Part shown: positions 4,463 to 37,224 of the stretch, one piece after another
How positions within the stretch are numbered: the stretch's first letter is position 1
Layout of the letters: each line of letters starts with the position of its first letter
Source: Pseudomonadota bacterium
GTDB taxonomy: Bacteria; Myxococcota_A; UBA9160; UBA4427
DNA length: 37,315 nucleotides
Assembly (NCBI GenBank): GCA_027295775.1
Contig: JAPUKG010000009.1
Coordinates: forward strand, 1-37,315
Direction of reading: 5' to 3'
Notes under the pieces: generated by a model
What the model saw: only the letters and a program-made list of their open reading frames with translations
The model's database searches: none
Told to the model about the DNA's origin: nothing
Translations under genes and position numbers: made by a program

Positions 4463-4603
4463 CTCTCACCCCCCAAAAAATACGGTCCCGGTCACGATCC
4501 CCATCTGATCGCGCGGGAATGGTACATGAAAACGGTGTTTTTGTGCGGTTGATTTCTCGCAACATCGACACTCAACACCCCGATTTGACTAGGCTCTGGC
4601 TGC

Positions 4604-5842: not shown

Positions 5843-5940
5843 GCTCTCTCTCACCCCCCAGTGAATGACCGCCGGCTCCGCCGGCGACCCGATTTGGGCG
5901 CAGCAGCGCTTCCGCGCGACAACGCCACTTTTTGTCCTGC

Positions 5941-9205: not shown

Positions 9206-9210
9206 TTCCG

Positions 9211-12811: not shown

Positions 12812-12815
12812 TGCC

Positions 12816-13889: not shown

Positions 13890-15292
13890 TATCCAGTCTC
13901 CTTGGAAGTGAGGGCCGCTACGACCCGCTCCATCTGCATGGCGCGCGATCCCTTGACCAGCACCCAGTCCCGCGGGCGCAGGAGGTCCCGCACGGCGCGG
14001 CTGGCGGCAGCGTGGTCGGGCACGGCGCGGGCCCGGCCCCCGTCCATGCCGGCCGCCGCGGCTGCCTCGGCCACCAGGGGCGCGCGCTCCCCGAGCGCAA
14101 ACAGGAAGTCGACGCCGAGCTCGGCCGCGGCGCGGCCGGCCTGCCGGTGGGCCTCTTCCGTGTCGTCGCCGAGCTCGCCCATGTCGCCCACCACCGCCAG
14201 CCCGCGGCCGTCGCCCTTCAGCCGCGCCAGGGTCTCGAGAGCGGCGCGCAGCGACTGCGGGTTGGCGTTGTAGGTGTCGTCGATCAGGGTCACGTCGCCG
14301 GCGAGCGCGATCCGCGCCATGCGCCCGCCCACGTTGCGGTAGGCCCCGAGACCGGTGCGGATGTCGTCCAGGCTCGCCCCCGCGGCCAGTGCCGCCGCGG
14401 CAGCGGCGGTGGCGTTGATCACTGTGGTCTCGCCGAGACCGGGGACCCGGAGCGAGATCTCGCCCTCCGGCGTGGTGAGATCGAAGGTGAAGGTCCCCTC
14501 GTCCAGGAAGCGGATCTTTCGCGCCACCACCTCGGCGTTCGAGCGGGTCGAGTAGCCGAGTACCGCGCCGGGCGCGCGCCGCGCCTGCTCACCAACCCGT
14601 GCGTCGTCGCGATTCACCACGGCGATACCGTCCTCAGCGAGAGCGGCGAAGAGGTCGCCCTTCTCTCGCGCGATCTCGTCGCGGCTGCCCAGGAACTCGA
14701 TGTGGGCGATCCCGACGTTGGTGACCAGGCCGACGGTCGGCGCGGAGATCGCCGCCAGGCGGGCGATCTCGCCCCGGTGGTTCATTCCCAGCTCGACCAC
14801 GGCGCTCTGGTGCTCGGGGCGCAGGCGCAGCAGGGTGAGCGGTAGACCGAACTCGTTGTTCAGATTGCCCTCGTTCTTGAGGCACGCCGCGCGCACGGAC
14901 AAGATCGATGCGCACATCTCCTTGGTGGTGGTCTTTCCGCTGCTCCCGGTCACCGCGACGACTGGACCGCGGAAGGTTGCGCGATGGCCCGCGGCCAGGG
15001 AGCCCAGGGCGGCGGTGGTGTCGTCGACCTCGAGCACGGCCGTGTCCCCGGGAAGCGCGTCGTCCGCGACTCGACCGCGCTCGACCACCAGCGCCGCGGC
15101 GCCCGCCTCCAGCGCCTGGGACAGGAAGGAGTGGGCGTCGTGGCGGGGCCCACGGATGGCGACGAAGAGCTCTCCGGATGCGATCGCGCGGGAATCGATG
15201 GAGACGCCGGTGACGGGTTTCTCTTCGGCGCCTCGGCGCAGGCTCGCGCCAGTCCAACGCACGGCGTCGCCCAGCTGGAAGGCGGCGCTCAT
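13889..15292 (-). CDS. murF: UDP-MurNAc-tripeptide:D-Ala-D-Ala ligase
   Basis: VAVTGSSGKTTTKEM, LNNEFGLPLTLL, DDTYNANPQSLRAAL. Confidence 0.96.
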   Translation of the reverse strand: MSAAFQLGDAVRWTGASLRRGAEEKPVTGVSIDSRAIASGELFVAIRGPRHDAHSFLSQALEAGAAALVVERGRVADDALPGDTAVLEVDDTTAALGSLAAGHRATFRGPVVAVTGSSGKTTTKEMCASILSVRAACLKNEGNLNNEFGLPLTLLRLRPEHQSAVVELGMNHRGEIARLAAISAPTVGLVTNVGIAHIEFLGSRDEIAREKGDLFAALAEDGIAVVNRDDARVGEQARRAPGAVLGYSTRSNAEVVARKIRFLDEGTFTFDLTTPEGEISLRVPGLGETTVINATAAAAAALAAGASLDDIRTGLGAYRNVGGRMARIALAGDVTLIDDTYNANPQSLRAALETLARLKGDGRGLAVVGDMGELGDDTEEAHRQAGRAAAELGVDFLFALGERAPLVAEAAAAAGMDGGRARAVPDHAAASRAVRDLLRPRDWVLVKGSRAMQMERVVAALTSKETG

Positions 15293-16848
15293 CGCAGCTC
15301 CCCCCGCACCACGGCCCGGAGCGCCCGGCGCGCCTCGTCCCGGTCGTCGAAGGGCAGCTTTTCGCGACCCACGATCTGGTAGTCCTCGTGGCCCTTGCCG
15401 GCCAGCACGACCATGTCGTCGGTGCGCGCCATGACGATGGCGCGCCGAATCGCCGCGCGCCGGTCCTCGATCACGGCATACGCGCCTTCGCGCGCATCCA
15501 GCTCCTCGGGCTCGGTGCGGGAGAGGGCACCCAGCCCGCCCTCCACGTCGCGCAGGATCGCGGCGGGATCCTCGCTGCGCGGGTTGTCGCTGGTGGCGAT
15601 CACCCGGTCGCTGAAGCGCGCCACGGCCTCGGCCATGAGCGGACGCTTGGTGGTGTCCCGGTCGCCACCGCAGCCGAAGACGGTGATCAGCCGTCCGCGC
15701 ACCAGCGGACGGAGCGCGAGCAGCAGCTTTTCCACGGCGTCCGGCGTGTGCGCGTAGTCGACCACGACCGCGGGCAGCGCGGCTCCCTCCACGTCGATCA
15801 GTTCGACGCGGCCGGGAACCTGGGGGCAGGCTGCAACGCCTCGGGCGATGGAGTCGGGGTCGATGCCCAGCGCCTCTGCGATTCCGCAGGCCACGATCAG
15901 GTTCTCGAGATTGAAGTCGCCGACCAGGGGGAGGTCCAGGTCGATCTCCCCCGACGGCAGCTGCACTCGCGCGCGGCTTCCGGACAGCCGCACCTCCGCG
16001 CGGAGCAGGCGCACCTCGGCATCCCTGTCGAGATCGCGAGTGGTGCGCAGGATGGTGGCGCCGGCGCCCAGCGCCTCGGCGCACAGCTTCTCGCTGGCGG
16101 GGTCGTCGACGTTGATGACCGCTCGCCCACCCGGCGCCAGGCACTCTCGGAAGAGCAGAGCCTTCGACTCCAGGTAGGCGTCCATGCTGCCGTGGAAGTC
16201 CAGGTGGTCCTGGGTCAGGTTCGTGAAGGCGCCCACCGCGAATCGGCAACCGTTCACACGACCGAGCTCGAGGCCGTGGGACGAGACCTCCATCACCACC
16301 GCCTCCACGCCGTGGGTGCGCATGGAGCGCAAGCTGCGCTGGAGGTCGAGACTCTCGGGCGTTGTGTTGACCGCCGGGATGCGCTCGCCGGCGTATCGGA
16401 CCTCGACCGTGCCGATGAGCCCGGTGCGGATCCCCGCGCGACCGAGGATCGACTCGGTGAGGTAGCTGGTGCTGGTCTTGCCATTGGTTCCGGTGATGCC
16501 GATCAGCGTGCACTCGCTGGCGGGCTCTCCGAAGAAGCGGGTGGCCACCGGGGCCAGCGCCCGCCGGCTGTCGTTCACGACGACCACCGGGGGGAGGTCG
16601 GTCGACTCGGACCGAGGCGGCGCTTCCTCCACCATGAGTGCTGCAGCGCCGAGCTCGACGGCCTGGGCGAGGAAGTCGTGACCGTCGAACGAGTCCCCTC
16701 GCAGCGCCACGAACAGATCCCCGGGCGCGATGCGCCTGGAGTCGTAGGAGATGCCGCGGATCACCGGGTCGTCCGAAGGGTTGGTCCGGATCCACTGCAG
16801 CGGCGCGTGCTCGGGGGGAAGCGCTGCGAGCAGGGCGGAGAGCCGCAT
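15289..16848 (-). CDS. murE: UDP-MurNAc-L-Ala-D-Glu:meso-DAP ligase
   Basis: GITGTNGKTSTSYL; ATSDNPRSEDP (DNPR motif associated with meso-DAP specificity). Confidence 0.96.
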   Translation of the reverse strand: MRLSALLAALPPEHAPLQWIRTNPSDDPVIRGISYDSRRIAPGDLFVALRGDSFDGHDFLAQAVELGAAALMVEEAPPRSESTDLPPVVVVNDSRRALAPVATRFFGEPASECTLIGITGTNGKTSTSYLTESILGRAGIRTGLIGTVEVRYAGERIPAVNTTPESLDLQRSLRSMRTHGVEAVVMEVSSHGLELGRVNGCRFAVGAFTNLTQDHLDFHGSMDAYLESKALLFRECLAPGGRAVINVDDPASEKLCAEALGAGATILRTTRDLDRDAEVRLLRAEVRLSGSRARVQLPSGEIDLDLPLVGDFNLENLIVACGIAEALGIDPDSIARGVAACPQVPGRVELIDVEGAALPAVVVDYAHTPDAVEKLLLALRPLVRGRLITVFGCGGDRDTTKRPLMAEAVARFSDRVIATSDNPRSEDPAAILRDVEGGLGALSRTEPEELDAREGAYAVIEDRRAAIRRAIVMARTDDMVVLAGKGHEDYQIVGREKLPFDDRDEARRALRAVVRGELR

Positions 16849-18908
16849 CAGCCCTCTCCCCTCCGAGCTCCCGCGAAGCGGACGAACACCCGCCGGTCCC
16901 CGCCGTCCAGAATGGCGCCGGGATGGGGCTCCTGCTGGACCGCCGTTCCGCGGCCGTTGAACTCGAGCTCGATCTGGTTCTCGGACGTGATCCGGATCAC
17001 CTCGTCGAGAGAGAGGCCCAGGAAGTCGGGCAGCAGGATGCGGTCGTCGTCCGCCTGGGTCACTCGCACTGGGGTTTCCTCGGCCCCGCGGACCGGGTCG
17101 CCCTGGGGCGGCCGGTGCGGGGCGGGCCGCTCTTCTTCAGGTTCGATGGCGGCGGGCGGCGTCGGGTTCCGTTTGGCGAGCCGCGTCTCGGGCAGCGGCG
17201 CTGGAGCCGGCTGGGGCTCCGTCGCGATTCCGAGCAGCGCGAGCTGGGCCGCCGCAACCCGGGCGAAGAGCGGGGCCGCGGAGGAGCCGCCGATGTGCGC
17301 GCCGCGGTCGGGCTCGTCGAGCGCGGCCACGATCACCAGGTGCGGATCGTCGGCGGGGACCGCGCCCACGAACCAGGCAATGAAGTCCTTTTTGGAGTAC
17401 GAGCCGGTCTCGGGGTCGAGCTTCTGGGCGGTGCCCGTCTTGCCCGCCACGCGCAGGCCCTTGAGCCCAGCCTGGCGACCGGTCCCGTGGGTTCCTACGA
17501 CGCCCTCCATCATGCGCAGCACCGCGTCGGCGGTGTCGGCGCTGACGACCCGCCGGGTGGTCCTGGGCTCGGTGCGAATCCAGCCGCTACCGTCGCCGCG
17601 GCGGCGCGCGGCGATCAGACGGGGCGCGATCCAGACGCCGCCGTTGGCCAGGGCCGCGGTGGCGGCCGCGAGCTGGATCGGCGTCACGCCGATCCCCTGT
17701 CCGAAGGCGATGTTGGCGTGGTCGAGGGGCTTCCACTCCCGCCAGGGGCGCAGTAGGCCCGCGGACTCGACCGGAAAGCCACTTCGGGTGGAGGCGCCGA
17801 AGCCGAAGCGGACCAGACCTTCGTGGTGGGCGGCCGGACCGAGGCGCTGTGCGATCTGCACCGCGCCGACGTTGCTCGAGACGCGAACGACGCCGGACAC
17901 GTCGAGGATGCCGTAGTCGTGGGTGTCGTGGATCCATTTGCCGGGCACGTGGATGCGGCCCTCGCTGCAGTCGAAGCGATCCGACGCGCGGATGACGCCG
18001 GCCTCGAGCGCGCTCGCTACCAGGAAGATCTTGAGTGTCGATCCCGGCTCGACGGCGTCGAGGAAGACCCGCGAGCGCGTCGTCCAATAGTCGAGCTCGC
18101 GGAACCGATTGGGATCGAAGCTCGGTGCTTCGGCCATCGCGAGTATCTCGCCGGTCTTCGGATCCAGACTGAGAACGGTGCCAGCCCGGGCGCCGGTCTT
18201 CTCGAGGCTCTCGCGCAGCGCCCTCTCCGCCTCGGCCTGCATCCGCGAGTCGAGGGTCAGGGCGACGTCGCCGCCGGCGGACTCGCGGGGCGCCACGGCC
18301 GTGGTGGCCAGAAGTCGGCCGCTGCCGTCGCGCTCCACCGGCGCGCTGCGCGCGCTGCCGCGCAGCCAGGCGTCTTCCTGCTGCTCGACCCCGCGAACGC
18401 CCTCGCCGTCGATGTTGGCGAAGCCGATGGCGTGCGCGGCCAGCTCCGCGCCGGGATAGGCGCGCTTCGACTCGTGCACGATGCCCACGCCAGGCAGGCC
18501 CAGGGCCTCCACGGCCCGAGCCCGGTCCGGATCCACCCACCGGGCCACGAATGTGAAACGCGTGCGGCCGCGCAGCCGCGCGGTCAGCTTGCGCCGGGAG
18601 AGTCCGAGCTTCTGCGTGAGCTGTCGGACCACGGCGTCGCGATCGCCGAGTTCGCTCGGCAGCACGTAGACCGAGGGCGCCGCCACCGTCACCGCCAGCT
18701 CGACGCCGTTGCGGTCGACGATGAGACCCCGCGCCGGCGGCAGGTGCAGTGTGGTGTGGACCTGCCGGTCGCGTTGCCACTCGCCCCGCTGGGTGTCGAT
18801 CACCGTGAGGTGGGCGGCGCGGCCGGCCAGCACCGCGAACAGGATCAGGAAGACGGCGCGCAACGCACCCACACGAGCGCAAGCGGCGCGAAGCGCGGTC
18901 GACCTCAT
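16848..18908 (-). CDS. ftsI: Penicillin-binding protein FtsI with C-terminal PASTA domain
   Basis: EPGSTLKIF (SxxK), SSN, GKTGTAQ (KTG); C-terminal LLPDFLGLSLDEVIRI… PASTA-like repeat. Confidence 0.95.
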   Translation of the reverse strand: MRSTALRAACARVGALRAVFLILFAVLAGRAAHLTVIDTQRGEWQRDRQVHTTLHLPPARGLIVDRNGVELAVTVAAPSVYVLPSELGDRDAVVRQLTQKLGLSRRKLTARLRGRTRFTFVARWVDPDRARAVEALGLPGVGIVHESKRAYPGAELAAHAIGFANIDGEGVRGVEQQEDAWLRGSARSAPVERDGSGRLLATTAVAPRESAGGDVALTLDSRMQAEAERALRESLEKTGARAGTVLSLDPKTGEILAMAEAPSFDPNRFRELDYWTTRSRVFLDAVEPGSTLKIFLVASALEAGVIRASDRFDCSEGRIHVPGKWIHDTHDYGILDVSGVVRVSSNVGAVQIAQRLGPAAHHEGLVRFGFGASTRSGFPVESAGLLRPWREWKPLDHANIAFGQGIGVTPIQLAAATAALANGGVWIAPRLIAARRRGDGSGWIRTEPRTTRRVVSADTADAVLRMMEGVVGTHGTGRQAGLKGLRVAGKTGTAQKLDPETGSYSKKDFIAWFVGAVPADDPHLVIVAALDEPDRGAHIGGSSAAPLFARVAAAQLALLGIATEPQPAPAPLPETRLAKRNPTPPAAIEPEEERPAPHRPPQGDPVRGAEETPVRVTQADDDRILLPDFLGLSLDEVIRITSENQIELEFNGRGTAVQQEPHPGAILDGGDRRVFVRFAGARRGEG

Positions 18909-19264
18909 GGCCGGGCTCCGGCCCCTGTGTCGTCGGCGAACGGGAGGCGGATCACGTGTTCCGGGCGCACGAACCCGCGTTCGCGGGCGTGCTCGGCCAG
19001 GAGCGACGGCTGGCGGAGCTGGCGCATCTCGACGGTCAGCTCGCGCTTCTCGGCCAGCAGCGACTGCTCGCGGGCGACGGCGTCGGCCAGCGCGTAGCGG
19101 ACGCGCAGCAGATCCACCCGGAGCACCGCCACGAGCAGGGCGGCCAGCAGCGCCGCCGCCAGGATCGGCGCGATCTCCCGGACGCGAGGCCGCCAGCGCA
19201 CCGCCCGCCCCGAGAAGTCGAGCCCGACGAGGTCGAGACCCCTGCGTGCGCTGCGCACGCTCAC
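18905..19264 (-). CDS. ftsL: Cell division protein FtsL-like
   Basis: Small bitopic protein with coiled coil between rsmH and ftsI; GTG start overlapping the rsmH stop (GTGA). Confidence 0.8.
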   Translation of the reverse strand: MSVRSARRGLDLVGLDFSGRAVRWRPRVREIAPILAAALLAALLVAVLRVDLLRVRYALADAVAREQSLLAEKRELTVEMRQLRQPSLLAEHARERGFVRPEHVIRLPFADDTGAGARP

Positions 19265-20238
19265 GCCGCCCGCTCCTCCAACGCCACCCGCTCGGCCGCG
19301 CGCAGCCGCGCGGAGCGGGCCCGGGGGTTCCGCCCCACCTCGTCCTGGCTGGGACGGATCGGCCGCCGGGTGATCACGCGCAGCGTCACCACCCCGCCGC
19401 AGATGCAGACCGGGGTGCGTGGCGGGCACGTGCAGGGGTTCTCGCCGGCCCGGAACGCCCGCTTGACGATCCGGTCCTCGAGCGAGTGGTAGGCGATGAC
19501 GACCAGGCGCCCGCCGGGACGCAACGCGGCGACGGCTGCATCGAGCCCCTCGCGGAGCGCCGAGAGCTCGTCATTGACCGCGATGCGCAGGGCCTGGAAG
19601 ACCAGCGTGGCCGGGTTGTGCTGGCGGCCGCGTCCCACCCGGGTCTCGCGGATCACGCGCAACAGGTCGGCGTTGGTCTCGAGGGGATGCTCGTCCCGCG
19701 AGTCGGCGATCGCGCGGGCCAGTCGTCGCGCGCCGGGAAGCTCGCCGTACTCGCGCAGCCAGCCCTCGATCTCCGCCTCGGAGGCGCGGTGCAGCAGCTC
19801 CGCCGCGCTCTGGCCCGAGCTCGGGTCCATGCGCATGTCGAGAGGGGCCGGGTGTGTCTCGGCCTCGGCGAAGCGGAAGCCGCGCTCGCGCGTGTCGAGC
19901 TGATGGGAGGAGACGCCCAGGTCCAGCAGCACCGCGTCGACCTTCTGGATGCCGAGGCTGGCGAGGGCGTCACCCACGCGGCGGAACGACGTGTGGACCA
20001 GATGCACGCGCCCGTCGAGCACCCCGGCGTCCTCGAGTCGGCGCTTGGTTGCGCGCAAGGCGTCGCCGTCCACGTCCATGCCGATCAGCGTCCCGTCAGA
20101 TCCGAGCTTGCCGAGGATGTGCCGAGCGTGACCGCCGCCACCGATGGTTCCGTCGATGACCACCGAACCGGGGTGCAGATGGAGGTGTCGGATGGTTTCG
20201 TCGAGAAGAACCGGCTCGTGCGCGAAGACGCTGGCCAA
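19261..20238 (-). CDS. rsmH: 16S rRNA (cytosine1402-N4)-methyltransferase
   Basis: HEPVLLDETIRHL, DGTIGGGGHARHIL, LLDLGVSSHQLD. Confidence 0.97.
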   Translation of the reverse strand: MASVFAHEPVLLDETIRHLHLHPGSVVIDGTIGGGGHARHILGKLGSDGTLIGMDVDGDALRATKRRLEDAGVLDGRVHLVHTSFRRVGDALASLGIQKVDAVLLDLGVSSHQLDTRERGFRFAEAETHPAPLDMRMDPSSGQSAAELLHRASEAEIEGWLREYGELPGARRLARAIADSRDEHPLETNADLLRVIRETRVGRGRQHNPATLVFQALRIAVNDELSALREGLDAAVAALRPGGRLVVIAYHSLEDRIVKRAFRAGENPCTCPPRTPVCICGGVVTLRVITRRPIRPSQDEVGRNPRARSARLRAAERVALEERAA

Positions 20239-20270
20239 CGTGGGGCTCCCGCGTTCGCCCCCCCCACGGT

Positions 20271-20307
20271 GGGCACCCCTTTGGTGGAGAAAGACGCTGG
20301 GGTGCCC
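20271..20307 (-). promoter_or_regulatory. Hairpin in the mraZ-rsmH intergenic RNA
   Basis: GGGCACCCC … GGGGTGCCC: 9-bp perfect arms, 19-nt loop. Confidence 0.5.
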
Positions 20308-20393
20308 CAGGACACCTTGGAAACGACACGTACCCCCCAGTTACCGCGCCGGCCCAACTGTTGGCGTCCCGGGGACACCCCAACCTCTCTCCT

Positions 20394-20411
20394 GGAGGAA
20401 GTGATTCCTCC
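20394..20411 (-). promoter_or_regulatory. Hairpin downstream of mraZ
   Basis: GGAGGAA-GTGA-TTCCTCC: 7-bp perfect arms, 4-nt loop, 26 nt after the mraZ stop. Confidence 0.5.
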
Positions 20412-20436
20412 TCCAGTCCCCCCACCGATGAACTCC

Positions 20437-20877
20437 TCAGTTCTTCAGACGTGCCACCGAGGCCTTGATGTCGGGAAGCCGACGCACCGTCGTTTCCCTG
20501 TGGGCCTGGTAGGCAGTCTGGTCCCAGATTTCTATGCGCGGGCCGACGCCCACGATCACGACCTTCGTCTTGAGCCCGGCGTGCTCGCGCAGGTGCGCCG
20601 GAATGAGGATCCGACCCTGACTGTCGGGGGCGGCGTCCACCGCCTCGCCCTCCATGAAGCGCCAGAGGGTCTCGACATCCGGGTGCATTTGGGGGTTGTC
20701 GAGGAGATCGGCCTCGATATGCTCCCACTGGTCATGCGGGTACAGGGCGAGGCAGTCGGTGTCGTTGGTGAGGACCGGGGCTTTTTCACTGCGCCGCTGA
20801 AGTTCCATTCGAAAGGCCGCCGGGATGCTGACTCGTCCCTTGTTATCCAACGTGTGTGAGTGACGTCCCCGAAACAT
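20437..20877 (-). CDS. mraZ: Transcriptional regulator MraZ
   Basis: MFRGRHSHTLDNKGRVSIPAAFR AbrB-like fold signature; first gene of the dcw cluster. Confidence 0.96.
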   Translation of the reverse strand: MFRGRHSHTLDNKGRVSIPAAFRMELQRRSEKAPVLTNDTDCLALYPHDQWEHIEADLLDNPQMHPDVETLWRFMEGEAVDAAPDSQGRILIPAHLREHAGLKTKVVIVGVGPRIEIWDQTAYQAHRETTVRRLPDIKASVARLKN

Positions 20878-24131: not shown

Positions 24132-24689
24132 CTAGTCTTCGTCGCTGGCGGCGGGAGCCCCGCTGGCGTAGGCCTTCTCGAGGGCTTCGACGGCTGCGGC
24201 CACGCGTTCGAGGTTCTCGTTCAGGGCCTCGACGTCCTTGCGGCGCGGCAGGTCGAGCAGCTTGAACACGCGCTCGACGGCGTTCTGCATATGGTGATCC
24301 AGGTCGGGGGCGGAGAAGGCCACCCAGTCGCCGAGCTTGCCGCCCTTTTGCTCCGACGCCTTCACGATCTTGCGCACGCGGCCCTGGATCTCCTCGATCC
24401 CCTCGCTGGCGTCGTCCATGCCGCGTCGGATCGCTCCGTACAAGACGTCGCCGCCGCGCTCGATGATCTGGGAGAGCAGGCTGCGCGGCACTTCGCGGTT
24501 GGCGCGTTCGCTGTCGACGAGGATCTGGGAGAGCGCGACGCTGGTGATGTCCTCGCCGGTCTCGTTGTCGACGACGCGGACCTCGTCGCCGGCATCGATC
24601 AGCTCGGAGATGCCCTTGAGCGTGATGTAGCGACTCGCCTCGGTGTTGTAGAGCTTGCGATTCGCATAGCGCTTGATGAGGATCGGCAT
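24132..24689 (-). CDS. phaR: Polyhydroxyalkanoate synthesis regulator (PhaR/PHB accumulation regulator N-terminal domain)
   Basis: ILIKRYANRKLYNTEASRYITLKGISELI… signature. Confidence 0.9.
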   Translation of the reverse strand: MPILIKRYANRKLYNTEASRYITLKGISELIDAGDEVRVVDNETGEDITSVALSQILVDSERANREVPRSLLSQIIERGGDVLYGAIRRGMDDASEGIEEIQGRVRKIVKASEQKGGKLGDWVAFSAPDLDHHMQNAVERVFKLLDLPRRKDVEALNENLERVAAAVEALEKAYASGAPAASDED

Positions 24690-24720: not shown

Positions 24721-25266
24721 TCAGCCCTGGACCCGGACCCGCTGCACGCGCCTCGCCGCCCGCCGTCGCCCGGCCTTCCGGCTCCGAACCGGGCGCGGAT
24801 CGCTCGCCGGAGAGGGCGGCTCGTCGCCGTCCCGGCGCAGGCCGAACTCCCATAGGATCTCGCGCAGTCCGAGGAAGGCGCGCAGCACGGCCCGGGCGTC
24901 AGTGTCGTCCCGCGACCGCTCCTCCCAGCGGGCGATCTCGGCGTCCAGGGCGTCGAGGATTGCGCCGAGGAGGCGCTCCGGTACGACCCGGCCGCCGCGG
25001 GAGGAGAGCCGGGCCGAGAGATCGTCGAGTCCATGGCCCAGAGCGGCCAGCCCGCGGTGGGCGTCAGCGGACTCGCCGCTCGCGGCCAGGCACGCCGCGT
25101 CCAGCAGGGCGCGTGCTGCCGCGAGCGCCTCTCCCAGCGCCGCCCGGGTGTGGGCCTGGGCGCGGGTGAGCGCCTCCTCGACCGAGCCGGGAGGATCGAG
25201 GCGCCCGGCGTCACTCGGGGACGGGGGCCGCCGAGCTCCCGTCCGCTGTTCGCCTTCGCTCGTCAT
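24721..25266 (-). CDS. Hypothetical protein (Arg-rich C-terminus)
   Basis: ORF starting MTSEGEQRTG, overlapping the 3' end of the upstream ArsA-like gene by 56 bp. Confidence 0.55.
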   Translation of the reverse strand: MTSEGEQRTGARRPPSPSDAGRLDPPGSVEEALTRAQAHTRAALGEALAAARALLDAACLAASGESADAHRGLAALGHGLDDLSARLSSRGGRVVPERLLGAILDALDAEIARWEERSRDDTDARAVLRAFLGLREILWEFGLRRDGDEPPSPASDPRPVRSRKAGRRRAARRVQRVRVQG

Positions 25267-26446
25267 CGACCAGGAACCCTCCGATGCGCATGAGCCCGTC
25301 GAGGTCGTGGACGTCGCGGGGAAACTCGGGGACCCGGCAGAAGAAGCGCCCATCCTGCAGCGCACGGAAGCGAAGCTCCGCGGTGCAGCGTGCGTCGAGG
25401 CGCACCAGCGAAGCGTACCCCTTCGCCACCTCCACCGCCGCACGCGCGGCCTCGTCGGCGCGCGCGGGTTCGAGGCCGTTCGCGACCAGTGCCTGCGCCA
25501 GCAGCGCGGTGTCCGCCGCGGCGTCGCCGTCCTCGGACAGGGCTTCGGGCAGGGCTCCCGCCTCGCCCGGGGGCCACAGGCGAATCCGGTTCACGACCAC
25601 GCCCACCAGGGGAACTCCCGACTCTTCCAGGTGATCCAGGAAGTCGACGGCGCCGCGCACTGCGCCGGCGGACGCCCCCGCCACCAGGACGAAGCCGGTC
25701 TCCGGCCCGGTCATCAGCTGGCGCACGCGCGTCGCCCGCGCGCGGAACCCCTCTGACATGCCCTCGAAGGCCAGCAGGAACTCCGACACATCCTCCAGGA
25801 AGGACACGCCGGACACCTTCTCGATCAGCTGGATCGCGCGCTGTGCGGTGCGGTGGAAGAGGCGGAACCCGAACCGCCCAGCGGCGAAGGCGGGGTGTAG
25901 CAGCACGTGCACGAGGCGGCTATCCAGGAATTCGAGCAGGCGCTGGGGTGCGTCCAGGAAGTCGAGGGCGTGCTGGGAGGGCGGGGTGTCCACCACCACC
26001 AGGTCGAAGTCGCCGCTCTCGCACAGCTCGTAGACCTTCTCCATGGCGGCGTACTCGGCGCTTCCCGCCAGGGCGTCCGAGACGTGCTGGTAGATGCGAT
26101 TGCCGAAAATCCGCTCGCGCGCGTCGGCGTTCTCGGCGAAGCGCTCCACCAGGTCGTCGAAGGTCCGCTTCATGTCGAGCATCAGCGCGAACAGCCGGCC
26201 CTCGCCGTGGATGCCGAGGGAGTCGCGTCGCTCGGCGGCGAGCTCCGACGGGCGATTGCCGAGCGCGTCGACGCCCAGGGCGTCCGCCAGCCGTCGTGCC
26301 GGGTCGATGGTCAGCACCAGGGCGCGCCGCCCGAGGCGGGCGCCCTCCAGGGCCAGGGATGCAGCGACCGTGGTCTTGCCGACCCCCCCGGTTCCGACGC
26401 ACACCACCACGCGCCGGCTGCAGATGAGCTCCGCCGGCGAGATCAA
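25211..26446 (-). CDS. ArsA/Get3-like ATPase (second of pair)
   Basis: VVCVGTGGVGKTTVAASLALEGA, LVLTIDPARRLADALGV, LVVVDTPPSQHALDFLDAP; probable TTG start in a 4-bp TTGA overlap. Confidence 0.88.
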   Translation of the reverse strand: MISPAELICSRRVVVCVGTGGVGKTTVAASLALEGARLGRRALVLTIDPARRLADALGVDALGNRPSELAAERRDSLGIHGEGRLFALMLDMKRTFDDLVERFAENADARERIFGNRIYQHVSDALAGSAEYAAMEKVYELCESGDFDLVVVDTPPSQHALDFLDAPQRLLEFLDSRLVHVLLHPAFAAGRFGFRLFHRTAQRAIQLIEKVSGVSFLEDVSEFLLAFEGMSEGFRARATRVRQLMTGPETGFVLVAGASAGAVRGAVDFLDHLEESGVPLVGVVVNRIRLWPPGEAGALPEALSEDGDAAADTALLAQALVANGLEPARADEAARAAVEVAKGYASLVRLDARCTAELRFRALQDGRFFCRVPEFPRDVHDLDGLMRIGGFLVDDERRRTADGSSAAPVPE

Positions 26447-27432
26447 GGCGCCGCCTCCGCGGGCCGGGGCTCGCCCAGCAGGGCGTCGCCCAGGATCTGC
26501 AGCTCCGCCGCGCCGCCGATTCCGCCCGCCAGGTAGCGCAGCGGCACGACCGGGAGCCCCGTCGCGCGGGCGATCTCGCCGGTGTACTCCCGATTGAGCG
26601 CGTGGCGCGACGCGAGGTAGGCCGCGCACGCGGCCAGGGCGGAGGCGGGCGGGAGCGAGCCCAGGGCCGTCTCGGCCGGGAGCGCGGCCAGGTCCCGGTC
26701 GAGCTGCTCGAGGCCGGGCGGGAAGGGCGCCCCGATCACGGCATTGACCACGACCCGATCCACCGCGACACCCACGTCTTCGCGCAGTCGCGCGACCAGC
26801 GCGGCGGTCTCCCGGGCCGGCAGCTCCTCGGCCAGCGCCACCGGCAGCAGGAGGGTGCGCTTCCGGTCCTGGATCATCTCCGCCACCAGGCTGGCGTGGC
26901 GGCGCAGGGGCCCGGCGTGGACCGCCGAGACCACCACCCGCGGCACGTCCAGGAAGGTGACGCCATGCCCTGTGGCCGGCGCGTCCACGACGATCAGGTC
27001 GTAGAGCGGAGCCCCGTCCGCGTCGGTGAGCTGCTCCAGGTGCCAGACCTTGCCCAGGGTGATCAGCTCGCGCCATCCCGGCGAGGCCTCCATCAGCTGG
27101 CGGAAGCCCCGGCTGCGGAACACGAGATTCACCAGGCGCCGCGCCGGCACCTGGAGGGTCAGGTACTCGGCCAGCGCATCGAAGGGGTCGATGCGCATGG
27201 CCCGGAGCCCCGGGAGCAGCTCGCGTCCGGCGTAGCCGACGGGCTCGCCGTTCGGAACCAGCAGCCGCGGAAGCTGTTCGGCGCGCCCCACCTCGGCCAG
27301 CAGCACCCGCTTGCCGGCGCGGCTGGCCGCCAGGGCCAGAGCCGCTGCCACCGTGGTCTTGCCGGTGCCGCCCTTGCCCGTCACGATCACGAGCCGGCGC
27401 TCCAGGAGCGAGGGCTCCCGTTCCGCCACCAT
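26443..27432 (-). CDS. ArsA/Get3-like ATPase (first of pair)
   Basis: LVIVTGKGGTGKTTVAAALALAASRAGKRVLL; LIVVDAPATGHGVTFLDVPR. Confidence 0.9.
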   Translation of the reverse strand: MVAEREPSLLERRLVIVTGKGGTGKTTVAAALALAASRAGKRVLLAEVGRAEQLPRLLVPNGEPVGYAGRELLPGLRAMRIDPFDALAEYLTLQVPARRLVNLVFRSRGFRQLMEASPGWRELITLGKVWHLEQLTDADGAPLYDLIVVDAPATGHGVTFLDVPRVVVSAVHAGPLRRHASLVAEMIQDRKRTLLLPVALAEELPARETAALVARLREDVGVAVDRVVVNAVIGAPFPPGLEQLDRDLAALPAETALGSLPPASALAACAAYLASRHALNREYTGEIARATGLPVVPLRYLAGGIGGAAELQILGDALLGEPRPAEAAP

Positions 27433-27607: not shown

Positions 27608-28948
27608 TTGATCGTCGAATGCGAAAAGTGCTCGGTCCGTTTCCAGCTGGACGAGAGCCGCGTGCCCGCGGAGGGCATCCGGGTGCGCTGCTCCCGCTGC
27701 AAGCACTCCTTCTTCCTGCGCCGGCCCGGTGCCAGCCCCGCCGAAGAAGCGGATGCCCTGGCCCAGGAGGCGCTCGAGCCCGGGGCCGGTACGCCCGCGT
27801 CTACCGAGGACCTCGCAGCCGAGGAGAACGCCGATGACACCCGCGAGGAGAGCGCCAACGACGGCGAGGAGAGCGACTGGGAGTTCAACGACGCGGTCCC
27901 CGGATCGAACGAGCTCGACCCCGATGATGACGCGGACCCGGCGACCGACACCGTCGAGAACGACGCGGTCGCCCTCGCCTCCGAAGACGACGGCGCCGGC
28001 GACTCGAGCCTGGAGGTCACCAGCTTCGGCCGCGTCGACGACTTCTCCTCGCTGGCCGAGGCCGATGCCGAGACCGGACTCGGAGGCGCGGAGGCTTCGC
28101 CCTCCATCGGGGAGTCCGCGCAGACCGATGCGATCGACCCGCTCCTGGAGGGCGGCAGGGAAGAGCTGGGCGAGCCTGAGAACTGGGACTTCTTCGGCGA
28201 TGAGGATCCGCCCGCCCCCGAGGCGATGTCCATCGCCGCGCCCAGCGACCGACCCGCTGAGAGCGCGCTCCACTCGTCCGGTCCAGTCCTGCAGGCGGCC
28301 GCCTTGGACACCCGCGAGGAGGGCCCCGGCCTCCGGGCGCTGCGCAGCGCGGGTCGCGCCGCGGGCTGGTTCGTCGCTCTGTCGCTCCTGGCGCTGGGCC
28401 TGGTACGCGGCCTCGTTCCCGGCTTCCACCCCGTCACGCGCCCGGAGCCCGCGGTCGCATCCGCGGGCTGGGTCGCCCGCGGCGTCGAGAGTCACTGGGT
28501 CGAGACGGCGCGCTCGGGGACGCTCCTGTCGGTGACCGGAGAGCTTCGCAACCGCGACGGCGGTTCGCTGGACCGGGCGGGCCCCTGGCAGGCGGCGCTC
28601 CTGGGACCCGTGGGCCGGCCCCTCGAGCTGGATTCCGGGCGCGCCCGCCTGGGCGTTCCCCTGTCCGAGCCCGCGCTCCGCGAGCTGCCACCCGAGGCCC
28701 TGCGCGGATCCCTGGCCCGCGCCGCGGACAAGCTGGCTACCACCTCCGTGGAGCGCGGGGGCTCGCTGCGCTTCCAGGCGATCTTCGAGCGGGTGCCCGC
28801 CGAGGCCAAACGCCTGCGGGTGGAGCGGGCCGAGGCGCGGCCCTTCGAGTCCTTCGAGCCCAGCCTCGAGGCGCCCGAGCCGACAGCCGTGCCGGTCGGC
28901 GTGGTCGAGGCGATTCCGCTCCAGCCGTTTGCCGCGGAGACGCCCTAG
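27608..28948 (+). CDS. Zinc-ribbon (MJ0042-type) membrane protein with DUF3426-like C-terminus
   Basis: MIVECEKCSVRFQLDESRVPAEGIRVRCSRCKHSFFL; acidic linker; TM WFVALSLLALGLVRGLV; TTG start. Confidence 0.85.
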   Translation: MIVECEKCSVRFQLDESRVPAEGIRVRCSRCKHSFFLRRPGASPAEEADALAQEALEPGAGTPASTEDLAAEENADDTREESANDGEESDWEFNDAVPGSNELDPDDDADPATDTVENDAVALASEDDGAGDSSLEVTSFGRVDDFSSLAEADAETGLGGAEASPSIGESAQTDAIDPLLEGGREELGEPENWDFFGDEDPPAPEAMSIAAPSDRPAESALHSSGPVLQAAALDTREEGPGLRALRSAGRAAGWFVALSLLALGLVRGLVPGFHPVTRPEPAVASAGWVARGVESHWVETARSGTLLSVTGELRNRDGGSLDRAGPWQAALLGPVGRPLELDSGRARLGVPLSEPALRELPPEALRGSLARAADKLATTSVERGGSLRFQAIFERVPAEAKRLRVERAEARPFESFEPSLEAPEPTAVPVGVVEAIPLQPFAAETP

Positions 28949-28958
28949 CCCGACTCTC

Positions 28959-29156
28959 CTAGCTCGGAGGCTTGCCGTCCGTGACCTCCTCCTTCTCGGG
29001 GGTCACGTCGATCTCGTCCTTGCCGCTGATGCCGGCCTTGAAGTTCTTGATCGCCTTGCCGATGCCCGAACCGATCTCGGGGAGTCGTCGCGCGCCGAAC
29101 AGCAGTACGACGATGGCCAGGATGATGATGAGCTCCCAGGCGCCCAGTCCGAACAT
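28959..29156 (-). CDS. tatA: Sec-independent protein translocase TatA/E
   Basis: MFGLGAWELIIILAIVVLLFGARRLPEIGSGIGKAIKNFK. Confidence 0.95.
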   Translation of the reverse strand: MFGLGAWELIIILAIVVLLFGARRLPEIGSGIGKAIKNFKAGISGKDEIDVTPEKEEVTDGKPPS

Positions 29157-29237
29157 ACCGAAGAGGGTGACGCCAACCGGGGTCGGGGTCAACCACCCCT
29201 GAGACGACACTTTCCAGTCGGGGGCCGGCCTCGTAGA

Positions 29238-30593
29238 ATGCGCGCCGTGCCGATCTTCAAGGCCTACGACATTCGCGGTCTGGTCCCCGAGGAGCTCGAC
29301 GCCGACACGGCCTACGGGATCGGTCGTGCCACCGCTCACTTCCTCGGTGCTCCGGAGATCGCCGTCGGACGGGACGCCCGCGAGAGCTCGCCGGAGCTCA
29401 GCGAGGCGGTGATACAGGGCATCATCGACGAGGGCGTCGACGTCGTTGATCTGGGGCTCGTGTCGACGCCCATGCTCTACTACGCCGTCGATCGCCTGGG
29501 CAGCGGGGGCGGGATCATGGTGACCGCCTCGCACAATCCCGCCGCCTACAACGGATTCAAGCTCTGTCGCCAGCACGCGATTCCGGTGGGGGAGGCCAGC
29601 GGGCTGCGCGAGATCGAGGCGCTCGTCGACCAGCGGCGGAGTGCGGCTCCCGCGGCCGCGCCGGGACGGCGCCGGAGCGAGGACGCGTCGGTCGGATACG
29701 CCGAGCACGTGCTCGGGGTCGGCAGCCAGCGGCCCGCGCTGCACGTCGCCATCGACTGCGGCAACGGCATGGCCTCGGTGGGACTCGAGCCGCTGCTCGA
29801 GATGCTGCCCCTGCGCGTGGAGCGCCTCTACTTCGAGCCCGACGGCCGCTTTCCCAACCACCAGGCTGACCCGCTCGAGCTCGAGAACCTGGTGGATCTG
29901 CAGGCGGCAGTGCGCAGCAGCGGCGCCGACTTCGGCGTGGCCTTCGACGGTGATGGGGATCGTGCCATCTTCGTGGACGAGTCCGGGGAGCCGATCTCGT
30001 CGGATCTCGTCACCGCGGTTCTCGCCCGCCGACAGCTCGCGAGCCGGCCCGGCTCCCTGGTGCTCTACGACCTTCGTTCGAGCCGAGCGGTGGCCGAGGA
30101 GATCGAATCGGCCGGTGGACGTGCGGTGATGTGCCGAGTGGGTCACTCCTTCGTGAAGGCGCAGATGCGCGAGTGCGGTGCGATCTTCGCGGGCGAGCTG
30201 TCCGGCCACTTCTACTTCCGCTTCTCGGATACGCTCGTGGCGGACGATGGCTGCGCTGCCCTGGTCGCCATGCTCGACGTGCTGGGCACCGAGCGCCGGC
30301 CTCTCTCGGAGATCATCGCACCGCTGCGGCGCTACGCGGCGAGCGGCGAGATCAACTCGCGAGTCGCCGATGTGGACCGGGTGCTGGAGCAGATCGAGGC
30401 CGAGCACGGTCGTGCCGGGGAGGTCTCGAAGCTGGACGGGCTGCTGGTCCGCTACGACGACTGGTGGTTCAACCTCCGGCCGTCCAACACGGAGCCCGTG
30501 CTGCGACTCAACCTGGAGGCGGAGAGCCTGGATCGCATGACCCGGGAGCGGGACCGGCTTCTGCTGCGCATCCAGGAGCTGGCGGGCTCCTAG
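29238..30593 (+). CDS. Phosphomannomutase/phosphoglucomutase
   Basis: IFKAYDIRGLVPEEL, MVTASHNPAAYNGFK, FDGDGDR. Confidence 0.95.
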   Translation: MRAVPIFKAYDIRGLVPEELDADTAYGIGRATAHFLGAPEIAVGRDARESSPELSEAVIQGIIDEGVDVVDLGLVSTPMLYYAVDRLGSGGGIMVTASHNPAAYNGFKLCRQHAIPVGEASGLREIEALVDQRRSAAPAAAPGRRRSEDASVGYAEHVLGVGSQRPALHVAIDCGNGMASVGLEPLLEMLPLRVERLYFEPDGRFPNHQADPLELENLVDLQAAVRSSGADFGVAFDGDGDRAIFVDESGEPISSDLVTAVLARRQLASRPGSLVLYDLRSSRAVAEEIESAGGRAVMCRVGHSFVKAQMRECGAIFAGELSGHFYFRFSDTLVADDGCAALVAMLDVLGTERRPLSEIIAPLRRYAASGEINSRVADVDRVLEQIEAEHGRAGEVSKLDGLLVRYDDWWFNLRPSNTEPVLRLNLEAESLDRMTRERDRLLLRIQELAGS

Positions 30594-33390: not shown

Positions 33391-34029
33391 CTAGTGAGCC
33401 AGGAGGATCCGCCGGGCGCGGTAGAGGTTCGACTTCACCGCGTCCTCGGACTTGGAGAGTGTCTTCGCGATCTCGCTGATCGGACGGTGCTCCAGGTGGT
33501 GCATGCGGAACAGGGTGCGTTGCTCTTGGGTGAGCTTGGTGCGCGCCGTCGTTTCCATCTGGGCCAGCCGTTCCTTGACCTCGTAGGCCTCGAGGGGAGT
33601 GGGATCCGGGGCCGCCGCAGTGGCTGCGGGGCCCCGGTCCGGATCGTCCTCCGTCAGCGGCACAGTGACGTGGCGCTTCTTCTTGAAGCGCGCCGCAATG
33701 GTCCGGCGCGTCAGGCCGAACACCCAGGCGGCGAAGGGCGCGTCTCCCCGAAACGACCCGATCGAGGAGAACACGTTGATGAAGGCCTCCTGAACCGTCT
33801 CTTCGGTGTCGGCGCGGTTGTTCAGGCGCTTCTCGACGAAGCGGTAGATACGGGGGAAGTAGCGCTCGTAGACGATCTCGAAGGCCGCCTCGTCGCCCTC
33901 ACACATCTGCTTGACGAGGACTTCGTCGGGCAGGCGGGCCACGCTATCGAGATCAGGTCGAGCCAAGGAGAGGCACCCTTCTTCCCAGGTCCAATTCCAT
34001 CCTCGCCCGTGGCCTTTCGGCTCGGGCAT
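33391..34029 (-). CDS. ECF-type RNA polymerase sigma factor
   Basis: DEAAFEIVYERYFPRIYRFVEKRLNNRADTEETVQEAFINVF (region 2), ISEIAKTLSKSEDAVKSNLYRARRIL (region 4). Confidence 0.93.
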   Translation of the reverse strand: MPEPKGHGRGWNWTWEEGCLSLARPDLDSVARLPDEVLVKQMCEGDEAAFEIVYERYFPRIYRFVEKRLNNRADTEETVQEAFINVFSSIGSFRGDAPFAAWVFGLTRRTIAARFKKKRHVTVPLTEDDPDRGPAATAAAPDPTPLEAYEVKERLAQMETTARTKLTQEQRTLFRMHHLEHRPISEIAKTLSKSEDAVKSNLYRARRILLAH

Positions 34030-34128: not shown

Positions 34129-34710
34129 CTAGGATTCGAAATCGCGGCGCTCCTCGGCGGTGAGGTGGAGATCCGCCTCGCTGAGGCCGCTCCGAAACAC
34201 CGCGGGCTCGGGGGTGTGCCGTCCCAAGCCCGTGGCCGCTCGAGCGGTTGCCCCGACCGACGGGGACGCCGCCTCGATCCAAAATCCGTCCTGGGCGCCA
34301 TTGTGGGCCTCGCGGTAGCACGCGAGCACCGGGGCCTGGGCGCCCAGGCTGGCCGCGGCGCTCCGGGTCTCCGGGTCGAAGTCGGGGCAGAGGAGCACGG
34401 CGCGGACCGGGGCGTCTGGATCCAGCCGTAGCTCGGGTCCGATCTGGGCCCAGTCGGCGAGCCGGGCCGACACCCAGCTGCACAGGGCCAAGGCCCGGGT
34501 CAGGAGTGTCGGGTCGTCACCGGCCTCGCCGATCAGGATCAGGGTCACCTGGCCGCGGTCATCCACCGCCACCAGATCCGCGGTGGAGCGCTCGCCCATC
34601 ACGTCTTCGGCAATCACCCGCAGCGAGGGGCCGAAGTCTCGAATTCGGTCGCGCACCGACCTGCGAAGCGCGTCGCGGGAATCTCGGGGCAGCGACCCTC
34701 GCTCAGACAA
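34129..34710 (-). CDS. Hypothetical protein, degenerate NucS/RecB-like (PD-(D/E)XK) fold candidate
   Basis: GERSTADLVAVDDRGQVTLILIG… ALCSWVSARLAD … VRAVLLCPDFDPETRSAAASL resembles the NucS/RecB-like pattern; TTG start. Confidence 0.5.
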   Translation of the reverse strand: MSERGSLPRDSRDALRRSVRDRIRDFGPSLRVIAEDVMGERSTADLVAVDDRGQVTLILIGEAGDDPTLLTRALALCSWVSARLADWAQIGPELRLDPDAPVRAVLLCPDFDPETRSAAASLGAQAPVLACYREAHNGAQDGFWIEAASPSVGATARAATGLGRHTPEPAVFRSGLSEADLHLTAEERRDFES

Positions 34711-35500
34711 CGGCCATCTCCCGGGCGTCGTCGAGCACCAGGCGCGCGACGTCGCGCAGGGCTCGGGCCGCGGGGGACTGGGGATGGGCGAGCCCGATGG
34801 GCCGGCGCGCCACGATCGCCCGGTACACGTCCAGATCGTCCACGAGCAGACCGTAGCTCGCCAGCTCGCGTCCGAGGTGGCGCTCTGTCGAGCGAGTCAA
34901 CCGGGCGAAGGCCTGCTCGGCGTCCGCCAGCCGCCGCGCGCCGTGAACCGTGATGCCGACCCGGGCACACTCGTTGGCGCCGAGGATGAGCTTGGCGATT
35001 CCGTAGGTCTCCAGCAGCTCCCGGGCGTCGCCCGACGTGAAGAGCAGGCACCAGCGCAGCAGGCTCGAGCTCTCGGCCAGGCCCGCCAACCAGGGCGGCG
35101 GGATGCGCACGAAGACCACGCCACCTTCCGGTGCTTCGGCGGCCCGATCGACCGCCACGTCGATGGCGTGGCGGTGAAGCTCCCCGAGTCCGCGGGCGTC
35201 CGAGTGCACGACCTCGACACCCACCGGACCGACCCCCGACACGGGGAGCAGTGCCTCGTCTCCACCGGATTTCGGGGCCAGGACCAAGGCGCGCGCGCCC
35301 AGCCGGGCGATCTCCACCGCCAGGTTCCAGGTCAGCGCCGAGCGGACGACGTCGCTCTCGCCGATCGGGACGCCGACCAGGGGAAGGGCGGCGGGCCGCC
35401 GAGCCGGCGTCGGGCCCGCGTGTACCGGTGGCGTCCGGGCAGCCTTGGGCTCAGCCTCCGGCAGGAGGTAGTGGAGGACGTCGGCCAGGTCGCGGGGCAA
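34703..35500 (-). CDS. MinD/FlhG-like protein with degenerate P-loop
   Basis: LPLVGVPIGESDVVRSALTWNLAVEIARLGARALVLAP replaces the KGGxGKS/T P-loop; C-terminal RFLGxEL-like / RRPIGLAHPQSPAARALRDVA as in MinD/FlhG; TTG start with SD TGGAGG. Confidence 0.6.
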   Translation of the reverse strand: MPRDLADVLHYLLPEAEPKAARTPPVHAGPTPARRPAALPLVGVPIGESDVVRSALTWNLAVEIARLGARALVLAPKSGGDEALLPVSGVGPVGVEVVHSDARGLGELHRHAIDVAVDRAAEAPEGGVVFVRIPPPWLAGLAESSSLLRWCLLFTSGDARELLETYGIAKLILGANECARVGITVHGARRLADAEQAFARLTRSTERHLGRELASYGLLVDDLDVYRAIVARRPIGLAHPQSPAARALRDVARLVLDDAREMAVV

Positions 35501-35521: not shown

Positions 35522-36604
35522 CTAGCGCACCACGAGGATCGAGTTGCGCCCACCGCCGGAGACGGGCAGCGACTGGGCGTTGTCCGGATCCTCCCGCCAT
35601 TCCCCGTCGACGATGTAGCGGTACTGGTAGGTCCCGGGCGGCAGGTGGAGGATCTTCGTCCACACCCGCGTCTCTCCCTCCCGGTCGACGCGTGAGCGCA
35701 CCCCCTTGTCGGGCACCCAGCCGTTGAAGTCGCCCGCGATTCGGACGTCGCCGGCCCGGGCGTCTCGGAAGCGGACGACGACCTCACGCGCGGTGTCGAC
35801 CTCGGCCTGGCGATCCTCCAGTGCGATCGTCTGATCCGGCGGCGACGCCTCCACCTCGATGGCCACGGCGGCGTAGTCGAGAGCGCCGTTCGCCGACGGC
35901 GCGTAGAGGTTGATGGGCACGCCCCGCTTCGCGCACTCGCGGAGCTTCACGTTCTGGCGAATCACCGCGTCGAAGCAGAGGTCCTTGAAGAGCTCGCGCA
36001 TCTCGGCCAGCGTCTGGCGCGCGAAGCGGGTTCGCCCGTCGTAGAGCGTGGGCAGGATGCGCACCGACAGGTCGATTCCGATCCGGTCAGCGAGCAGGCC
36101 GATGGTCTCGAGGAGCTTCTGCACGCCGTCGATGGCGAAGTAGCTCGTCTCGAGGGGGATGATCACCTCGCGCACGGCGCGAAGGGCGTTGAACGTCAGC
36201 AGCCCTACGTTCGGCGGGCAGTCGACCAGCACGTAGTCGTAGCGGGGCGGGAGCTTCGCCAGGGCCGCCGCCAGGCGCTCGGTGCGCGAGTCTTGGCGCT
36301 CGCTGGCGAGCTTCTGCTCCAGGGCCGAGAGCACGATGCTGGACGGCGCCAGGTCGAGGTTGTCCCCCGCGTTCACGATCACCTCTTCCAGGTGGTTGGC
36401 GCCTCCCGGCTCGGCGAGCACTTCGTAGAGGTTCTCGTCGAGCTCGTCCGGGTCGATGCCCAGCGCCAGGCTCGCGTGGGCCTGCGGGTCGAGGTCGACG
36501 ATCAGCACCCGAAAACCGTCGGCGGCGAGCGCTCCGCCCAGGTTGACGGTGGTGGTCGTCTTCCCGCAGCCCCCCTTCTGGTTCACGATGGCGATGGTGC
36601 GCAT
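35522..36604 (-). CDS. ParA/MinD family ATPase with C-terminal AMPK1_CBM (CBM48-like) domain
   Basis: IAIVNQKGGCGKTTTTVNLGGALA, LIVDLDPQAHASLALG, YVLVDCPP; C-terminal VRIAGDFNGWVPDKG…LPPGTYQYRYIVDGEWREDPDN. Confidence 0.92.
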   Translation of the reverse strand: MRTIAIVNQKGGCGKTTTTVNLGGALAADGFRVLIVDLDPQAHASLALGIDPDELDENLYEVLAEPGGANHLEEVIVNAGDNLDLAPSSIVLSALEQKLASERQDSRTERLAAALAKLPPRYDYVLVDCPPNVGLLTFNALRAVREVIIPLETSYFAIDGVQKLLETIGLLADRIGIDLSVRILPTLYDGRTRFARQTLAEMRELFKDLCFDAVIRQNVKLRECAKRGVPINLYAPSANGALDYAAVAIEVEASPPDQTIALEDRQAEVDTAREVVVRFRDARAGDVRIAGDFNGWVPDKGVRSRVDREGETRVWTKILHLPPGTYQYRYIVDGEWREDPDNAQSLPVSGGGRNSILVVR

Positions 36605-36750: not shown

Positions 36751-37224
36751 TCAGGCCGTGCGAATCCACTCCCGCTGTCGGCGAACCGGTCGTACCCCCC
36801 GAACAAACCGTTTCTCGGCCTCGCGCCTCCAGGCTTCGACTTCGCTCTGGAACTGCGCGACTTCGAAGACCCACTCCTGGCCCGAGACCGCTTCGAAAAC
36901 CGTACCCTCCCAGAATGCCAGGACCACGTCCCCCGTCGCCACGAGCACCAGCTCGGAGAGGGGGCGGTCCACGCCCGGGAGGAGCTTGCGCAGCGCCTGG
37001 ATGCTGCGGCGAATGCGCTGCACCGAGACGCCGGCGTCGATCAGGCGCTTGGCCGCCTTGAGCGCCACGAGATCGTCGAAGGTGAAGCGGTGATGACCGC
37101 CCGGGGTCTTCACCGTGGGCGCAATCAGGTCCGTCTGCGCCCAGTACTGGAGCTGGCGGCGGGAGATGCCCAGGATCTCGACCACATCCCGGGTTCGATA
37201 GAGCTCGTTCGCATCTGCGGGCAT
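36751..37224 (-). CDS. MerR family transcriptional regulator
   Basis: LYRTRDVVEILGISRRQLQYWAQTDLIAPTVKTPGGHHRFTFDDLVALKAAKRLIDAG. Confidence 0.92.
   Translation of the reverse strand: MPADANELYRTRDVVEILGISRRQLQYWAQTDLIAPTVKTPGGHHRFTFDDLVALKAAKRLIDAGVSVQRIRRSIQALRKLLPGVDRPLSELVLVATGDVVLAFWEGTVFEAVSGQEWVFEVAQFQSEVEAWRREAEKRFVRGVRPVRRQREWIRTA

Follow-up and report, generated by a model that had tools for sequence, protein, structure and literature searches.

The window, by which we mean the whole stretch of DNA that was analysed (37,315 nucleotides), carries at positions 35522-36604 a gene for a protein of 360 residues in which a ParA-type ATPase is joined to a domain of the AMPK1_CBM family. 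An earlier note, made from the letters of the DNA, had assigned this single open reading frame to the same coordinates and left its strand unstated; the coordinates stood, and the gene proved to lie on the minus strand. The features that are relevant to the analysis are as follows:

36751-37224, minus strand: MerR-family regulator gene, directly upstream of ParA-CBM (MerR_1, E 4e-15, Pfam)
35522-36604, minus strand: ParA-CBM fusion gene, 360 aa, one uninterrupted open reading frame from the ATG at 36604 to the stop at 35522
35846-36604, minus strand: ParA domain, residues 1-253 (AAA_31 and Walker residues)
35789-35845, minus strand: linker, about residues 254-272, fast-evolving and of varying length
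35525-35788, minus strand: AMPK1_CBM domain, residues 273-360 (Pfam and AMPK alignment)
34703-35500, minus strand: ORF2, MinD/FlhG-fold protein with the N-terminal helix MPRDLADVLHYLLPE (AlphaFold2 and Foldseek)
35453-35500, minus strand: N-terminal helix region of ORF2, residues 1-16, with R/K3 and L5, then a low-confidence linker
34129-34710, minus strand: ORF3, PD-(D/E)XK-fold protein, overlapping the end of ORF2 (AlphaFold2 and Foldseek)
33391-34029, minus strand: ECF-type sigma factor gene, next after ORF3 in the gene string conserved in Myxococcota
28929-30593, plus strand: phosphomannomutase/phosphoglucomutase (PMM/PGM) gene, given as an open frame, with the true start probably near 29240
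3086-20877, minus strand: division and cell wall (dcw) cluster, ftsZ ... mraZ, about 13 kb from ORF3

The genes thus follow the order MerR, ParA-CBM, ORF2 and ORF3, with these first four on the same strand. The two partner genes ORF2 and ORF3 and the link to the dcw cluster were absent from the earlier note and were found on follow-up.

As had been proposed, the N-terminal part of ParA-CBM is a ParA ATPase with intact deviant Walker A, Walker A′ and Walker B motifs. Pfam placed an AAA_31 match at residues 1-179 (E 1.2e-50), and among the PDB sequences the nearest solved chain was ParA/Soj (8ray, E 7e-49). Sequence searches also showed that this ATPase is nearest to the DNA-segregating ParA/Soj proteins rather than to FleN. 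The deviant Walker A motif KGGCGKT occupies residues 10-16, Walker A′ provides D37 and D39, and Walker B provides D128. In the order-level set, K10, K15, D37, D39, D128 and R191 were invariant, while position 220 (K220 in ParA-CBM) was K or R in 17 of 18 alignment rows and Asp in the Omnitrophota fusion L052. We take R191 and K220 to be the DxR and NVR DNA-contact positions of Soj, an assignment made partly via the 8ray alignment. Judged by its motifs, ParA-CBM is a deviant Walker A ATPase of the ParA/MinD type, and basic residues of the DNA-contact type, predicted to serve non-specific DNA binding, are present. The identity that had been given to the C-terminal part also held. The AMPK1_CBM profile (PF16561) matched residues 283-354 with an E-value of 9.9e-12 and 45.3 bits against a cut-off of 26.8, the CBM_48 profile (PF02922) stayed under its threshold with 19.2 bits against 22.4, and the nearest solved chains among the PDB sequences were the CBMs of AMPK beta (1z0n, E 2e-6). 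The linker between the two domains showed an identity within genera of 6-74%, as compared to 79-98% for the ParA domain.

When species genomes were scanned for this architecture, about 50 full-length relatives with 56-77% identity were recovered from metagenome-assembled genomes (MAGs) of the Myxococcota/'Deltaproteobacteria'. More distant full-length fusions with 36-44% identity were present in MAGs of three other phyla, namely the Effluviviacota-type loci L048-L051, the Omnitrophota locus L052 and the Acidobacteriota locus L053. Within the window's order, the CBM was found in 54 of the 61 genomes and, with few exceptions, it was in frame with ParA wherever the contig held the complete gene. 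An assembly or frameshift artefact was ruled out by the same read-through fusion in dozens of independent genomes. Together with the CBM match, this closed both of the routes by which, according to the earlier note, the fusion could have turned out not to be genuine. On a tree of ParA domains, which comprised 19 fusions plus plain ParAs and had L052 and L053 on long branches, the 19 fusions formed one group with a support of 99/90 that was present in 98% of the bootstrap trees. Since the fused ParA domains form one clade across four phylum-level groups, the fusion is old and has been retained. One relative genome (G011) contained two copies of ParA-CBM, on contigs C39 (L119) and C75 (L147); as L147 reaches the contig end, this MAG may be a strain mixture.

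In the window's own genome, which is 91% complete, the only ParB_N match was located on contig C311 beside a canonical ParA. No ParB_N adjoined ParA-CBM, in agreement with the earlier note, which had seen no ParB next to it. The presence of a canonical ParA-ParB pair elsewhere implies that ParA-CBM is not the chromosome-segregating ParA and is free for other cargo, and an ordinary parABS system was rejected because the sole ParB_N adjoins a different ParA. A plasmid origin was rejected as well, since plasmid matches showed less than 60% identity and the best-ranked ones covered 68-70% of the query, which corresponds to the ParA part. Likewise, a phage or defence system was discarded, as PHROGs returned just the ParA and PADLOC gave weak partial matches only. 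The genome also encodes further ParA/MinD-like ATPases. Among its other ParA proteins is one of 306 aa with the motif EKGGSGKT, at G000:C20:10946-11530 (L085).

Across the loci, the gap between the ParA-CBM gene and ORF2 had a median of 18 bases, and an overlap of a few bases between ORF2 and ORF3 was typical. The trio of ParA-CBM, ORF2 and ORF3 was co-directional in the Myxococcota and recurred in L048-L051 without the other neighbours; MerR and sigma factor genes were not found adjoining it in these four loci. A MerR gene lay upstream on the same strand in 35 loci. Downstream of ORF3, genes for an ECF sigma factor, an alpha/beta hydrolase, an EI24-type protein, a DsbA-like protein and PMM/PGM recurred in most Myxococcota loci, with a PMM/PGM match at the expected place in about 35. 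Another locus, L056, combines ParA-CBM with PMM and an ORF2-like gene. Neither ORF2 nor ORF3 was detected in L052, in L053 or in a small number of Myxococcota loci, where their low similarity may have prevented detection. Within the phylum, the ORF3 profile was present in 35 of 237 genomes, nearly all of them in the window's own order.

Pfam returned no match above cut-off for ORF2 of the window. Its relatives in L048 and L049, however, matched CbiA (E 2e-10 and 7e-10) and had an intact P-loop ending in PGKST. The AlphaFold2 model of the window's ORF2 (pLDDT 88) was MinD-like, and Foldseek placed it nearest to FlhG (4rz3, E 5e-14) and FleN. Because a comparison of ORF2 with ParA-CBM by hhalign gave a weak similarity (probability 38%), the fold assignment rests on the Pfam matches in L048 and L049 together with the model. 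The Walker A motif of ORF2 was lost in 27 of 31 rows, including those of the Myxococcota, and was kept in L048-L051. The N-terminus of ORF2 forms a short, MPRDLADVLHYF-like helix, in which all 31 rows have R or K as the third residue and Leu5 is invariant; in the AlphaFold2 model, this helix is followed by a low-confidence linker ahead of the MinD/FlhG body. Compared with FlhG and FleN (PDB 4rz3, 5j1j), ORF2 has in common a MinD-like fold that is preceded by an N-terminal helix, but it lacks the DQAxxLR motif, has lost Walker A in the Myxococcota, and is encoded in an operon with ParA-CBM instead of flagellar genes. Proteins that activate ParA/MinD ATPases are unrelated in their bodies but have in common a short N-terminus of positive charge (PMC7993993, PMC12204374). 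By analogy with these proteins, we infer from the helix with R/K3 that ORF2 may be the ATPase-activating partner of ParA-CBM. With one conserved basic residue, fewer than in PomX or McdB, its N-terminus would correspond to a weak form of the basic-N-terminus-plus-linker arrangement. The N-terminal helix of FlhG itself acts on the GTPase FlhF and not on a ParA (PMC12826062).

For ORF3, the AlphaFold2 model (pLDDT 86) had the nuclease NucS/EndoMS as nearest structures (2vld and 5gke, E 1-2e-4, Foldseek). The two share a PD-(D/E)XK core, but differ in that the identity is about 10% and in that a motif check of the ORF3 rows found the catalytic ExK of PD-(D/E)XK nucleases to be absent; D45 was nearly invariant. 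Without ExK, ORF3 is probably no nuclease, and the model is consistent with a protein that would probably serve in binding or as a scaffold. In the Effluviviacota-type loci L048-L050, ORF3 has an extra conserved C-terminal region of about 100 aa (e.g. L048:8255-9148) that is absent in the Myxococcota.

The earlier note had suggested a polysaccharide granule as the cargo, and for glycogen this idea can be judged from the binding site and from the genomes in which the fusion occurs. The AMPK domain holds glucose units by the stacking of W100 and W133 and by hydrogen bonds from K126 and N150, with further contacts from L146 and T148 (PMC9788615, PMC4339375). The equivalents in our CBM are W296 for W100, R329 for K126, W336 for W133 and N354 for N150. 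W296, R329 and W336 were invariant in the window's order, and N354 was present in 49 of the 53 informative order-level rows, whereas positions 350 and 352, the equivalents of L146 and T148, were variable. For most of the invariant CBM residues (G, F, N, D, P), a role in the fold is likely as well. The domain therefore shares its family and three site residues (W100, W133, N150) with the glycogen-binding domain of AMPK beta (PDB 1z0n, 4yef), but differs from it by the replacement of K126 with R, the loss of L146 and T148, the fusion to a bacterial ParA and its occurrence in genomes without glycogen genes.

Conceivably, the CBM could bind glycogen while the ParA domain distributes the granules at intervals along the nucleoid, and both the AMPK1_CBM match above cut-off and the retained tryptophans, basic residue and Asn are in favour of this. 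The gene content of the order argues against it. A strong glycogen synthase was missing in 43 of the 54 CBM-bearing order-level genomes, phosphorylase in 37, and glycogen synthase (GT5), GH13 and phosphorylase (GT35) altogether in 29; these calls rest on draft genomes, many of them with a completeness of 90% or more, and whole genera show the pattern. The own genome encodes one GH13 protein, its best glycogen-synthase match scored 23 bits, and neither a phosphorylase nor a CBM48 protein was found, the latter meaning that there is no recognisable GlgB or GlgX. Substitution of the missing genes by GH57 branching enzymes was rejected, as there was only one strong match among 61 genomes. Furthermore, the ParA-CBM operon contains no glycogen gene. 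A CBM that reads home-made glycogen should drift where glycogen has been lost, but no such drift was observed. In 28 CBMs from genomes without glycogen genes, the four site residues held except for two changes at N354, and the CBM/ParA divergence ratio was 1.12, compared to 1.23 in glycogen-makers. The within-genus dN/dS of the CBM was about 0.01-0.12 in glycogen-free genera and 0.16-0.28 in glycogen-making genera, ratios that are rough, as dS was near saturation in many pairs. The glycogen granule is thus not supported in this lineage; we regard it as very unlikely and conclude that the ligand of the CBM in the window's lineage is probably not glycogen. A strong glycogen synthase is present in all five of the distant fusion genomes tested (L048, L049, L050, L052, L053), which makes it possible that a role with glycogen was ancestral and that the fusion was re-purposed later.

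Plasmids, carboxysomes, chemoreceptor clusters and division sites are positioned by ParA/MinD ATPases, which normally act via a separate adaptor. Our best reading, to which we give an even chance on the strength of motifs and gene context, is that ParA-CBM provides the ATPase for a distinct chromosomal positioning system of the ParA/MinD type. In such a system, the ATP-bound ParA-CBM dimer would bind to the nucleoid without specificity. ORF2 would dock on ParA-CBM with its basic N-terminal helix and trigger hydrolysis, like ParB, PomX, McdB and MinE, ORF3 would tether or scaffold ORF2 or DNA, and the CBM would be a receptor for a ligand or cargo that is built into the ATPase. In this lineage, candidate ligands of the CBM would be a glycan other than glycogen, either alpha-glucan-like or related to the envelope, or a protein surface that has come to occupy the groove. 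The full version, with a glycan receptor for a non-glycogen saccharide such as an envelope or division-site glycan, a degenerate MinD/FlhG-like activator and a scaffold of dead-nuclease fold, is a doubtful one in our judgement. With ParA/Soj (PDB 8ray, 6iub, 1wcv), the proposed system has in common the ATPase domain, the Walker motifs and the DNA-contact-type residues, but it differs in having no ParB alongside, a C-terminal CBM, and ORF2 and ORF3 as partners. The McdA/McdB carboxysome system and the PomX/Y/Z division-site system likewise consist of a ParA-type ATPase adjoining the gene of a partner with a basic N-terminus and a variable body (PMC12204374, PMC7993993). ParA-CBM differs from these in that the ligand-type domain is on the ATPase itself and in that the proposed partner has a MinD/FlhG-fold body.

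The CBM could also be a beta-sandwich that binds no sugar and serves in protein-protein contacts or in stabilising the dimer, with its conserved aromatic face touching ORF2, ORF3 or the ParA dimer. This would explain the strong constraint on the CBM in genomes without alpha-glucan genes, and it fits with the likely fold role of most invariant residues and with the loss of the two AMPK loop residues that touch glucan. However, the equivalents of W100, K126 (as R), W133 and N150 are all kept, beyond the expected needs of the fold, and a linker of such variability does not suggest that the CBM packs tightly on the ParA domain. We consider this a real possibility, somewhat short of an even one, and as it concerns the CBM alone, it is compatible with the positioning mechanism. 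In a different role, ParA-CBM could act together with ORF2 as a regulator of the MerR protein or of the ECF sigma factor, in the way that FleN controls FleQ, the CBM being a metabolite sensor. The position of MerR directly upstream in 35 loci, the sigma factor gene downstream in most, and the likeness of ORF2 to FlhG/FleN, of which FleN is known from PDB entries to bind the regulator FleQ, point in this direction. Yet the trio stands without MerR and sigma genes in L048-L051, and ParA-CBM is nearest to ParA/Soj and not to FleN, which makes the regulator unlikely.

With respect to the possible site of action of the preferred positioning system, a dcw cluster was located some 10-30 kb or slightly more downstream of ParA-CBM in 9 of the 10 relatives tested, which represent several families of the order, the exception being G034. 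It was not seen in the 6-kb flanks of L048-L053. This linkage hints at work in division or the envelope, although it may be inherited gene order. Based on the linkage to ftsZ-mraZ, a role near division or envelope growth is our first hypothesis. As far as our literature search covers, the system is previously undescribed: no description of a ParA joined to a CBM48/AMPK1_CBM domain was found in a search that left subscription journals mostly outside its coverage, so that an earlier mention is possible. If our reading is true, a ParA with a built-in receptor of the sugar-binding type would demonstrate that the ATPase is able to read a ligand by itself, and ParA-CBM could make spatial organisation dependent on the state of metabolism or of the envelope.

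Lastly, PHA granules were considered as a cargo and rejected, since PhaC_N was detected in only 2 of 61 genomes and not in the own genome. The window does encode a PhaR-type PHA accumulation regulator with a phasin-like tail (24132-24689, minus strand; PHB_acc_N, E 9e-26), yet the genome has no recognisable PHA synthase. In addition, two adjacent genes for ArsA/GET3-type ATPases are located at 25211-27432 on the minus strand of the window, and a similar pair was observed near ParA-CBM in L056.
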